64,000 bases of DNA from Cenococcum geophilum 1.58 (Eukaryota > Ascomycota > Dothideomycetes > Gloniales > Gloniaceae): the NCBI GenBank assembly GCA_001692895.1, contig KV748188.1, positions 62,001 to 126,000 of the forward strand, read 5' to 3'. The notes under the pieces are model-generated. The model was not told the origin of the DNA, made no database searches, and saw only the letters and a program-made list of their open reading frames with translations. Within the stretch, counting starts at the first letter, position 1. Every line of letters begins with the position of its first letter. Below, in pieces: positions 59,819 through 63,666 of this stretch. Made by a program: the position numbers and the translations under genes.

Positions 59819-60000
59819 TAGCTTTCTATTACTAAGGAAGGTAGCTACCTATTATATAAACGCCATAGATAATCCTAGTTCCTTATAGATAAATAGAAGC
59901 CAGTTTGTAGAAATATAGTTAAAGGCCCCTTTTACGTCTAGAAATAGCGTAGTAGGGTTAAGAGTATTATTATATATAAAATTCAATATATTTTTATATA
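59819..60000 (-). pseudogene. LINE reverse transcriptase fragment (palm, upstream part)
   Basis: On the minus strand the frame reads FLDVKGAFNYISTNWL followed by KELGLSMAFI and then TFLSNRK. This is the first catalytic block of Tad1-type LINE reverse transcriptases (xxDxxxAFDxVxxxxLL ... FLxxR). The first aspartate of the catalytic set is visible in FLDVKGAF. The frame is interrupted downstream by a MITE and two LTR elements. Nothing of ORF1 or the endonuclease can be recognised above 60,000, so the copy appears truncated at the border of the gene island. Confidence 0.7.
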
Positions 60001-60331
60001 ATGTTAAAAGTTTTAATATTTTAATTAACTTGATTTAAATAGGATATCTAGATTAAATGCGTTGCTAAACCAGTGAGCTCTTAGCTGATTAAATTAATTG
60101 AGTCTTTGGTATTCAATTCAATTCAATATTAAAGTCTCGTTGATTGATTGGCAAGCCTGGAGATATCTCTTTTTCTCCCTCTGCATACGCTGACGCACCA
60201 CATCATAGCAACCCTAGAACTCCAAGCAATCACAAATCTAAAACTCCGAACAATGCATGACTTGCTTCAAATCGCTAGTAGCGCACGTCAGACCGTCAAA
60301 ATCAAATTCCCGCAACACCTATTTCCAACTC
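60001..60331. other. border between repeat desert and gene island
   Basis: Composition changes within about 100 bp, from RIP-altered AT-rich DNA to balanced sequence at about 60,060. A short ATTCAATTCAATTCAAT tandem lies near 60,110. No gene is seen. It should contain the 3' untranslated part of the minus-strand gene that ends at 60,332. Confidence 0.6.
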
Positions 60332-60905
60332 CTACCCCCCTTGATCTCTCTTCTCCAACGGCACCAACACATTTCCAAAAATCATCCTCGGCCCCTCCAT
60401 ACTCGGCGCCAGCAAACAAACACACAGAATCCTCGCTCCAAGCGTAGCCGCAAACCCGGTAATGACAAAAACATTCTTCTGCCGTCTCAAGCCGCGCTGG
60501 CACGTTTGTCAGCCCTCATTCCTCAACTCCAAACTCCAAACCCCAAACACCGGCCTCTCCGCAACTAACAAGCAGGTAAAGAACCGAGTATAAGAGAAAT
60601 ATAAAAAAAAATATAAAAAAATACACACTCACCCGCCTCATAAACCTCCAAAGGCTGACCTTCTCGAGCTCCGCAAACGCCGCCTTGGCCGCCTCTTTGG
60701 TCTCGCACTTCGAAACATGCACCACCAGCACGCTGCCCAGCACGAACTGCTGCGTGCGCTCGGTCCGGCCTCTCCGATGGTGCACCGCTGTAGTCTTTCT
60801 GAATATCGCTTCCGGCGGCCGCACGTGCTTACACTGTGCTTTCAGGGCCTGGAAGAGGGAGAGGGTGGGGCGCGGGATGCTGCAGGGGATGTGGGGTTTG
60901 AGCAT
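60332..60905 (-). CDS. hypothetical protein, 145 residues, two exons, one likely membrane segment
   Basis: I do not recognise this protein. Exon 1 (60,905-60,633) starts MLKPHIPCSIPRPT and exon 2 (60,496-60,332) ends KRDQGG and a TAG. The intron at 60,497-60,632 (136 bp) starts GTGAGT, ends CCAG and has a CTGAC branch site 13 bases upstream of the acceptor; it joins whole codons, so the frame is kept. The N-terminal half is basic and Arg/His-rich (RKTTAVHHRRGRTERTQ) and is followed by a helix-like KEAAKAAFAELEKVS. Residues about 98-116 (VFVITGFAATLGARILCVC) look like one membrane span, after a basic RRRGLRRQK cluster that would favour a cytosolic or matrix-side N terminus. It lies about 580 bp downstream of the FKBP-STIMATE gene on the same strand. 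The splice model is my inference, and an earlier acceptor near 60,565 would give a shorter protein. Confidence 0.5.
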
Positions 60906-61487: not shown

Positions 61488-63134
61488 CTACATTCTCCTA
61501 GAATTCAACGCTTCCTTGTCATTTTCCTCGTTTCCAAAGTGCTCAGAGCCACTACTGCCTGCGCCATCTATCACCGGATCGTATTCTGACCTCCTAGAAG
61601 GTATAGGAGTTGGATTCGCCTCCTTCAATGGCCCCCTTTCGGCAATCCTCTCTTTCTTCTTCGCGTTGACCTCCGCCTCGTCCTCGCTATCTTCCTCGTC
61701 CGACTCATCAAGCCTGCGTCTCCTCCGCTGCCCAAGCCACGCCTCATCCCCGCTTTCGTCGTCGCTCTCATCGTCGGTTGGGAGGGGCTGATGATCGCCG
61801 CTTCCTGGATCCTTGATGAATCCATCGATGATCCAATATTGGAGTGCGTTCATGATGAGCGGGAAAATAAGCATTACAAAGGTAATCTGGATTGCTTCAT
61901 TCCCTTCTGTCCAACTAAGTGCCCAGTCGCCTACCCATGCGATCCACGGGAGGAGTTGGAAGATGAAGAAAACGCAGAGTTTCATGCCGAAGAGGCCGAG
62001 GAAGTAGATTATGGATTGCTTCAGCCACCACACAGCGCGTGGTGGGTGGCCATAATTACCTGACCGGATCGACTCTGGGGGGTTGGCGAGGGGTGTAAGG
62101 AGAGCACCCTTGTGCAAAAGCTTGAGGAGCAGGACTAGGATGGGGATGCCGATAGTTGTCTGGCTATCAAGTTAGAATGGGCCTTCTTAAAAAACTATCC
62201 GTTTATAGGTGACTGGAGTGACTTACATCAATAGCTAAATTGAGTAGGTAAAAGGAGCATGGGTTGGGTTGTCGGCCACCGTCGTCCTGTACGAATTGCG
62301 CGGTCTGTTTAGTCTTTGCGGCGACATCGAATTCGCCGGAGGAAAGCATCGACATGAAAAGGTTGGCAAGATGCAAAAGGACGGATCCGAAAACTTGTTT
62401 CGAAACATCGAACCACCAGATCTTGAGTGGCCGCCGAGGAGTCTCGCGCCATCGTTTGTAGACAAGCGACGAGAGAGCAAGCGCACCAAGAGCGCCTTGA
62501 ACGAGTAAGGCAAAGGGTCCTAATAACTTGCATTCGCCGTCGTTCTCAGGGCCGTCATGATCCTTAGGTCCACCTTCTAGTCCACCCACCTTGTCAGGTT
62601 GCGCTGTGACAGTCACATCTGTAGTCGAAGTTGGAGAAACAGCTGCAATAGTGGATGATGCAGGCTCCTCCGCTTTGACTCCATCGATTCCCATAAGCTC
62701 CGTTTCAAAGACTGTGACCACATATTAGCTTTAACATCACCTAAATATTGTCAAGGATGCCTACTAAGTGTTGACCCGGCGGGAATTTTCCCGATCGCAC
62801 GATTCCCGTACGCCATTTCCGGCGGAATTGTTAACGTCCTCCCCTCACCAATACACATATCCAGCAGTCCCTTATCCCAGCCAGCAATAACCTGTCGAGC
62901 TCCTAACACAAACTCGAACGGTGGACCCCTGTCATAGCTGCTATCAAACTTTGTGCCGTCACTCTGGAGTGTTCCACGATAATGCACGTAAATGTCATCG
63001 CCGTTGCGCGTTTTGCGGGTGCATTCTACAGCTTTGGTGACTTCTATTCGAAGATCGTCTGCGGAAACGGGGCTGAGTAGAAGAGATAACGCGAGGGTCG
63101 TGAGGAGAGTGTTGAAAAAAGAGAAGGGCCGCAT
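61488..63134 (-). CDS. FKBP-type prolyl isomerase fused to STIMATE-family membrane protein
   Basis: Three exons (63,134-62,765; 62,711-62,227; 62,159-61,488) give 508 residues. Introns of 53 bp (GTAGGC...CACAG) and 67 bp (GTAAGT...GCCAG, branch CTAAC) keep the frame. Residues 1-25 are a signal peptide with a cleavage site after SPVSA, which sets the start. Residues about 40-133 are a complete FKBP domain with the ligand-pocket residues in place ([52 protein letters not shown]). Without a stop, a Thr/Pro/Ser linker (134-183) leads into a STIMATE/vacuolar membrane domain (Pfam PF12400) with about five spans (187-207, 230-247, 277-301, 332-357, 376-396) and motifs [19 protein letters not shown] and [11 protein letters not shown]. 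The tail is acidic and Arg-rich. FKBPs catalyse cis-trans isomerisation of prolyl bonds. STIMATE proteins act in ER or vacuolar membranes (human TMEM110, yeast YPL162C). Five spans would leave the FKBP lumenal and the tail cytosolic (inference). Confidence 0.82.
62160..62226 (-). other. intron 2 of FKBP-STIMATE gene (67 bp)
   Basis: GTAAGT donor, CTAAC branch site about 13 bases before the CAG acceptor. It joins LLNLAID to TTIGIPIL inside a membrane segment of the STIMATE domain, in phase 0. Confidence 0.88.
62712..62764 (-). other. intron 1 of FKBP-STIMATE gene (53 bp)
   Basis: The donor GTAGGC is weak compared with the GTAAGT and GTGAGT of the other introns. The acceptor is CACAG and a GCTAAT branch-like site lies near the 3' end. 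Splicing joins ...PAGSTL to [10 protein letters not shown], which restores the last strand of the FKBP fold. If the intron is kept, the frame stops four codons later (SRHP). Confidence 0.8.
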
Positions 63135-63581: not shown

Positions 63582-63666
63582 GCTGAGCGTGGTCCGGAGA
63601 AAGTTGAACGTGGTCGCCGATGGGGGTCGGCGAAAGTTGAGCGTGGTCGCCGATGGAGCGCCGGCA
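63582..63666. repeat. 33-bp tandem repeat, GC-rich
   Basis: Two units, 63,601-63,633 and 63,634-63,666, each read AAGTTGARCGTGGTCGCCGATGG followed by a variable tail. A partial unit (GAGCGTGGTC) precedes them from 63,582. It lies exactly at the edge where GC-balanced DNA turns AT-rich. Confidence 0.8.

Follow-up and report, generated by a model that had tools for sequence, protein, structure and literature searches.

Gene structure at the locus

The window, by which we mean the whole stretch of 64,000 nucleotides analysed here (Cenococcum geophilum 1.58, contig KV748188.1, positions 62,001 to 126,000 of the forward strand), carries a minus-strand gene of three exons (63134-62765, 62711-62227, and 62159-61488) at 61,488-63,134. 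In silico splicing of these exons yields a coding sequence of 1,527 nt for a protein of 508 amino acids without a single internal stop. From N- to C-terminus, the product consists of a signal peptide, an FKBP_C domain, a linker of 51 residues, five hydrophobic spans that include the STIMATE domain PF12400, and a charged tail. An in-frame fusion of an FKBP with a STIMATE protein is present in the DNA. Exon 1 (62765-63134) opens with the ATG and encodes the signal peptide and the FKBP domain minus its last strand; a GT donor follows at 62764. On the basis of the frame and of hydropathy, exon 2 (62227-62711) was assigned the last FKBP strand, the linker, the first two spans (TM1 and TM2), and the start of TM3, and exon 3 (61488-62159) most of TM3, TM4, TM5, the predicted cytosolic tail, and the stop codon. 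Intron 1 (62712-62764, minus strand; 53 nt, phase 1) runs from GTAGGC to CAG, while intron 2 (62160-62226, minus strand; 67 nt) combines a GTAAGT donor with a TCTAAC branch-like site and a CAG acceptor.

Both introns have to be removed for the full product to be made. Retention of intron 1 gives a protein that ends in STLSRHP and misses the last FKBP strand, and when exon 2 is left unspliced at intron 2 the frame ends at a stop. With stops allowed, 2 of the 100 GT-AG pairs tried for intron 1 preserve the FETELMGID of the last strand, and both continue in frame into TM1 and TM2; the second one (donor at 62800) removes the 12 residues immediately before the strand and gives a product of 280 instead of 292 amino acids. 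Exon 2 was open in a fraction of 0.0008 of 5,000 single-base shuffles. For the linker alone this fraction was 0.091, and as it would be open in about 9 % of the shuffles, its openness by itself is weak evidence.

The exons, the two GT-AG introns, the frame, and the two Pfam domains proposed in a preliminary description of this DNA were borne out by the 508-residue reading frame and by the Pfam scores given below. The same goes for the join of the FKBP to the membrane part within one exon, as exon 2 carries everything from the last FKBP strand through the linker to TM2. The description had also placed a full STIMATE/PF12400 domain in that exon (62,711-62,227), which has to be corrected: the match covers residues 275-401 and exon 2 ends at residue 285, leaving 11 of the 127 matched residues in exon 2 and the remainder in exon 3. 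Since PF12400 is mostly encoded by exon 3, the STIMATE part of the fusion also needs splicing of intron 2, the junction of which is crossed by the profile match without interruption.

The FKBP domain and the FKBP2 gene of the same genome

A signal peptide is predicted at residues 1-25 (63060-63134, minus strand) from a hydropathy peak over residues 5-23, with the cleavage site placed by eye using the -3/-1 rule. The FKBP_C domain (PF00254; residues 38-129; 62695-63023, minus strand, across intron 1) was found with an E value of 2e-32 and a score of 111.8 bits, the curated cut-off being 21.1. Among the best 60 of 156 matches, the nearest single-domain relative of solved structure was human FKBP2 (4nnr; 105 bits), which ranked above FKBP14 and FKBP12; two multi-domain wheat FKBP entries outrank it only through their summed domains (best single domain, 76 bits). 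A check of the letters showed that Y52, F63, D64, R69, F73, V82, I83, W86, Y109, and F125, which we take to be the lining of the FKBP active site, are all present. With these residues kept, the FKBP of the fusion is predicted to be a prolyl isomerase.

A search of the organism's own genome (177.2 Mb, 162 contigs) with the FKBP_C profile, gave three places, a number to be read as a lower bound because the search was run exon by exon. No cytosolic FKBP12 was seen in this search; its gene may be split by introns. The three places are the fusion gene, a gene on contig C52, and a site elsewhere on C13, the contig of the window. The last one carries a nucleoplasmin-like domain upstream and appears to resemble the nuclear Fpr3/Fpr4 type.

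The C52 gene is of the FKBP2 type. It encodes, after splicing, a secretory FKBP of 133 amino acids with the C-terminus GGSVLIFETELVAIQGISKDEL-stop, its stop-terminated end also being given as IFETELVAIQGISKDEL-stop, with SKDEL as the last residues. Thus, the preliminary statement that FKBPs of the ER lumen end soon after the last strand holds for the fungus itself, whose own FKBP2 stops 11 residues past FETEL, in KDEL. The intron of the C52 gene (56 nt) follows nucleotide 349 of its coding sequence, in phase 1, at SVL-I-FETEL, and intron 1 of the fusion follows nucleotide 370, also in phase 1, at STL-I-FETEL; residue and phase are identical, the C52 splice having been selected by homology from four strand-preserving options, half of which use the chosen GTGAGT donor. 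The FKBP parts are identical at 75 of 130 aligned columns, 42 % differing, and over the matching stretch with human FKBP2 they score 105.0 bits (fusion) and 105.5 bits (C52 FKBP2). The shared position and phase of the intron and the alike FKBP2 scores indicate that the FKBP of the window is, as far as can be judged from sequence, a duplicate of the FKBP2 gene in which KDEL and the stop codon have been replaced by the linker and STIMATE. The fusion protein carries no KDEL-, HDEL-, or HNEL-type end; it reads on at the aligned position and has ALNSRRM as its C-terminus. The C52 gene is located in a GC-richer region (0.47) and has a UvrD-type helicase gene at a distance of about 2 kb.

Four loci in bacterial metagenome-assembled genomes, the relatives found among 21 pattern-matched stretches, match the FKBP part at 59-63 % identity, and none of the four alignments reaches beyond query residue 136, that is, beyond the FKBP part. 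Three of these four genomes are titled candidate-phylum bacteria. A similar figure, 62 % over 98 residues, applies to the paralogue within the fungus. A bacterial origin of the FKBP was considered and rejected, as the window gene and the C52 FKBP2 gene have the signal peptide and the intron in common.

The linker and the STIMATE part

The linker (residues 134-184; 62530-62682, minus strand; 153 nt) is rich in Gly, Thr, Pro, Asp, Glu, and Ser, is open in frame, and starts near the position of the KDEL-stop in the C52 FKBP2. Each of its five other frames contains 1-5 stops. Its codon score was 10.1 in frame and negative in all five others. The test has little force: its training set was just two genes, the FKBP part reached -4.0 in its own frame, the highest of all six, and in TM1-TM2 as well as in PF12400 the true frame was outscored by a reverse frame containing 3-4 stops.

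PF12400 was matched over positions 1-123 of the 124 in the profile (residues 275-401; 61812-62259, minus strand, across intron 2; E = 1.8e-43) with a score of 148.4 bits against a cut-off of 22, and exon 3 on its own still gave an E value of 1.9e-36. A domain match by chance is ruled against for both halves, as both domains score far over their curated cut-offs and intron 1 is common to the second FKBP gene. A hydropathy scan places five spans after the signal peptide, at residues 190-208, 230-248, 279-297, 334-352, and 373-391. The first two, at residues 190-248 (62338-62514, minus strand) with a basic loop of 7 K/R between them, lie outside the Pfam model and may belong to STIMATE, an assignment made from hydropathy and from what is known of the family. 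Proteins of the STIMATE family have a short N-tail before the first span; in the fusion, TM1 starts near residue 190, behind the FKBP domain. The charged C-terminal tail (residues 402-508; 61491-61811, minus strand) is predicted to be cytosolic and has acidic runs around RRRRR.

The loops between the spans contain, in turn, 7, 3, 5, and 0 Lys plus Arg, with the loops of 7 and 5 predicted to be cytosolic and those of 3 and 0 lumenal; the charge of the long N-terminal segment (17 K+R, 27 D+E) says little. Four to five spans are given for STIMATE/TMEM110 in a review (PMC7889955), and PMC8327215, on five-span proteins, lists STIMATE with locations in the ER and the vacuole. In the same review, PMC7889955, the C-terminus of TMEM110 is described as contacting the STIM1 coiled coil, from which it follows that this C-terminus is cytosolic. 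The charge bias and the published span counts would fit an FKBP domain in the lumen and a C-terminal tail in the cytosol. The topology first suggested for the protein, with its FKBP lumenal, is supported by them as a prediction.

Only the fusion gene was matched in the fungus's own genome by PF12400 and by the whole STIMATE part, and neither search detected a free STIMATE in this assembly. The STIMATE part had no relative at a useful level in the PDB, the single entry at E ≤ 10 being a chloroplast oxidoreductase subunit with an E value of 0.24.

Related proteins and earlier reports

The fusion appears to be a new domain architecture made of two known families, although domain databases may already list it. 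A report of an FKBP-STIMATE fusion was not found among the titles and abstract openings listed in the literature searches, and the accessible portions of three papers on fungal FKBPs (PMC1618848, PMC8192932, and PMC4569257) contain no such fusion. PMC8192932 mentions an ER group of FKBPs carrying a KDEL sequence, and PMC4569257 describes four FKBPs of A. fumigatus, the single long one of which has an extended N-terminus. No word starting with fung, yeast, or FKBP occurs in the main text of PMC5627428, which deals with the STIMATE family, and that of PMC5816826 contains neither FKBP nor isomerase. TMEM110/STIMATE and FKBP2 are mentioned once each in PMC4667504, the single co-occurrence among 31, and STIMATE, FKBP, and "fung" co-occur in PMC9513094. 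Pattern searches of viral contigs returned 2 stretches in one case and 6 in another, without a relative in either, and plasmids gave no match; no STIMATE or fusion relative was present in these non-fungal viral contigs, genome contigs, and plasmids, which says nothing on conservation.

With the FKBP2/FKBP13 family (yeast Fpr2, human FKBP2, and fungal Group C of Pemberton 2006), the fusion shares the signal peptide, the single FKBP_C domain, the intron of its own FKBP2 copy, and a near-equal score to human FKBP2; it differs by having no KDEL-type end and by continuing into the linker and five spans. In the STIMATE/TMEM110/Ypl162c family, a near-complete PF12400, five predicted spans, and a charged tail are found as well, whereas the signal peptide and FKBP domain in front are particular to the fusion. 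FKBP11 of animals likewise has a signal peptide, then an FKBP domain, then a transmembrane region, according to PMC9027113. It may serve as an earlier example of a secretory FKBP that is anchored by a membrane span, although it ends in one transmembrane region whereas the anchor of the fusion is a five-span family. Another FKBP to be compared is NcFKBP3 of Neurospora, which we take to be of the FKBP22 type. In Pemberton 2006 (PMC1618848), it is an ER FKBP of a filamentous ascomycete with a C-terminal extension, but this extension is charged, is predicted to form an amphipathic helix, and ends in HNEL, whereas that of the fusion is a membrane protein. The same paper describes Group D, a second set of FKBPs from N. 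crassa and G. zeae, which are likewise predicted to be in the ER and come from Pezizomycotina; they branch with Group C and are of unknown function (PMC1618848). They are described there as uni-domain, by which they would differ from the fusion. Finally, the dual-family FKBP-cyclophilin chimeras of PMC6316441 are natural FKBP fusions made via a flexible linker, with a second isomerase as the partner in place of a membrane protein.

Possible function and origin of the fusion

The run-on of both strand-preserving pairs at intron 1 into the membrane part, combined with a short linker in which AATAAA, AATGAA, and TATAA do not occur, makes one protein the simplest reading. We consider it rather probable that the locus is one gene with a single protein product, namely, a prolyl isomerase tethered to the membrane and facing the lumen. 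Such a protein could have arisen by duplication of FKBP2, after which one secretory copy would have lost its KDEL-plus-stop and become the lumenal head of STIMATE. The signal peptide would deliver the FKBP domain to the lumen, and the five spans would anchor the protein with its tail in the cytosol. STIMATE would take over the role of KDEL in determining the location, which might be the ER, or the vacuole as for yeast Ypl162c. The isomerase could then work on prolyl bonds in the lumenal loops of STIMATE itself or on membrane or lumenal clients gathered by STIMATE, and the soluble, KDEL-ended FKBP2 would retain the general folding duty. The gene would be a case in which, once a gene had been duplicated, a membrane anchor took the place of a retrieval signal, the shared intron marking the two FKBPs as having one origin.

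Partners that are fused in one organism tend to act in the same process elsewhere, a line of reasoning known as Rosetta-stone logic. That a duplicated FKBP is joined to the only STIMATE detected suggests, at the level of sequence, that the two parts work together, and the same logic predicts that a free FKBP2 and a free STIMATE share a process in other eukaryotes. We know of no role for the five-span STIMATE proteins outside animals. A fusion in a genome in which no free STIMATE was detected provides a concrete hypothesis here, namely, a lumenal partner of the FKBP2 type. A stronger proposal is that the architecture is old and selected, that STIMATE proteins need an isomerase of the FKBP2 class on the lumenal side, and that the tethered form fully replaced the free STIMATE in this lineage. 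This can only be put forward tentatively, the odds being clearly against it; if true, animal STIMATE/TMEM110 and yeast Ypl162c would have in FKBP2 a lumenal partner that had not been suspected.

The opposite possibility, a young or strain-specific fusion without joint function in which the FKBP is a passenger and STIMATE continues in its ancestral job, is unlikely. In its favour, the gene is located in a GC-rich island (about 3.7 kb) amid AT-rich, RIP-like DNA, a setting in which rearrangement is common, and the collections searched, which by design contain no fungal genomes, yielded neither a fungal nor a STIMATE relative. A mere passenger, however, does not match an FKBP domain that is as FKBP2-like as the retained copy and has diverged from it at 42 % of the columns without decay, its active-site letters being preserved. 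Such divergence without decay, together with the kept active-site residues, suggests from the sequence comparison that the FKBP part has been under selection for a long time.

Improbable, too, is the expression of two products from the locus, in which an internal promoter or start (M130, GAGCTTATGG) would give STIMATE alone and a separate transcript a soluble FKBP, the continuous frame being partly incidental. M130 is the sole in-frame Met between residue 107 and TM2, and a STIMATE begun at this Met would carry some 60 residues as its N-tail; the context of M130 is weak, however, with a C at -3. The 153 nt of the linker leave little room for a 3' end, a promoter, and a 5' leader, and AATAAA, AATGAA, and TATAA are all absent from 62530-62700. 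A short FKBP might also be made by means of a second intron inside exon 2, as 20 of 58 GT-AG pairs tried there yield a product of less than 230 amino acids that retains the last FKBP strand. Some of these are soluble FKBPs of 135-173 amino acids; the rest are longer and include pieces of the membrane region or have their frame shifted. Both main introns are well signalled, but the 20 cryptic donors are poor: none is GTAAGT or GTGAGT, examples are GTCAAA, GTTTCT, and GTGGAC, and the best looking one is GTGGGT at 62589. An FKBP-only splice form from a cryptic intron of exon 2 thus seems unlikely.

An error of sequencing or assembly, by which a lost stop or a small deletion merged two neighbouring genes, is very hard to reconcile with some 50 in-frame codons between the FKBP end and TM1 that show no trace of an intergenic spacer, with a frame that holds through two independently plausible introns, and with a linker codon score that, in the two-gene training set, is positive in the true frame only.

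The proposed connection of the fusion to calcium fared poorly. According to PMC7889955, STIMATE/TMEM110 of animals is located in the ER and regulates STIM1-Orai1, and the preliminary description had read the fusion as linked to STIM-Orai signalling. Profiles for Orai (PF07856) and for the SOAR domain of STIM (PF16533) had no match in the fungus's own genome, which is weak evidence as neither search had a working positive control. Fungi are commonly considered to be without STIM and Orai. The yeast protein Ypl162c is, we assume, a homologue of the STIMATE family. Its GFP fusion is listed in PMC8176713 among the proteins with only a vacuolar rim in log phase. The calcium reading is thus unsupported, and a lumenal isomerase arm on a regulator of ER calcium entry through STIM-Orai is most improbable. 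In one study (PMC9889089), knock-out of human TMEM110 roughly halved the amount of DPP4 at the surface, an effect that is compatible with a role on the secretory route but is no proof of it.

Genomic setting

The fusion gene is part of a GC-rich island, with a GC content of 0.50 over 60.0-63.7 kb of the window. The flanks (59 kb to the left and 20 kb to the right, C13:125901-145900) have a GC content of 0.31-0.36 and a TpA/ApT ratio of 1.5-1.8, which we take to be the signature of repeat-induced point mutation (RIP). In this AT-rich DNA (window 1-59000 and C13:125901-145900), the (CpA+TpG)/(ApC+GpT) ratio is low (0.37-0.65), as RIP would leave it. The TpA/ApT ratio of the fusion gene is 0.65, as against 1.5-1.8 around it; the gene is without the RIP signature and its frame is open. 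No stop-to-stop reading frame of at least 130 codons starts within the window's first 60 kb, and none was present in the two 10-kb flanks on the right.

A few smaller features were observed close to the gene. A possible short gene lies in the same GC island at 60636-60905 on the minus strand (MLKPHIPCSIPRPTLSLFQ...), followed by what looks by eye like a GTGAGT donor; its first 90 codons had no Pfam match. A short minus-strand reading frame at 59852-60034 carries LFLDVKGAFNYI, presumably a motif of the reverse-transcriptase type, and looks like a decayed reverse-transcriptase fragment, with nothing over the Pfam cut-off. At 63599-63656, roughly 0.5 kb upstream of the ATG of the fusion gene, a short unit, AAAGTTGARCGTGGTCGCCGATGG, occurs in two near-identical copies 33 bp apart.
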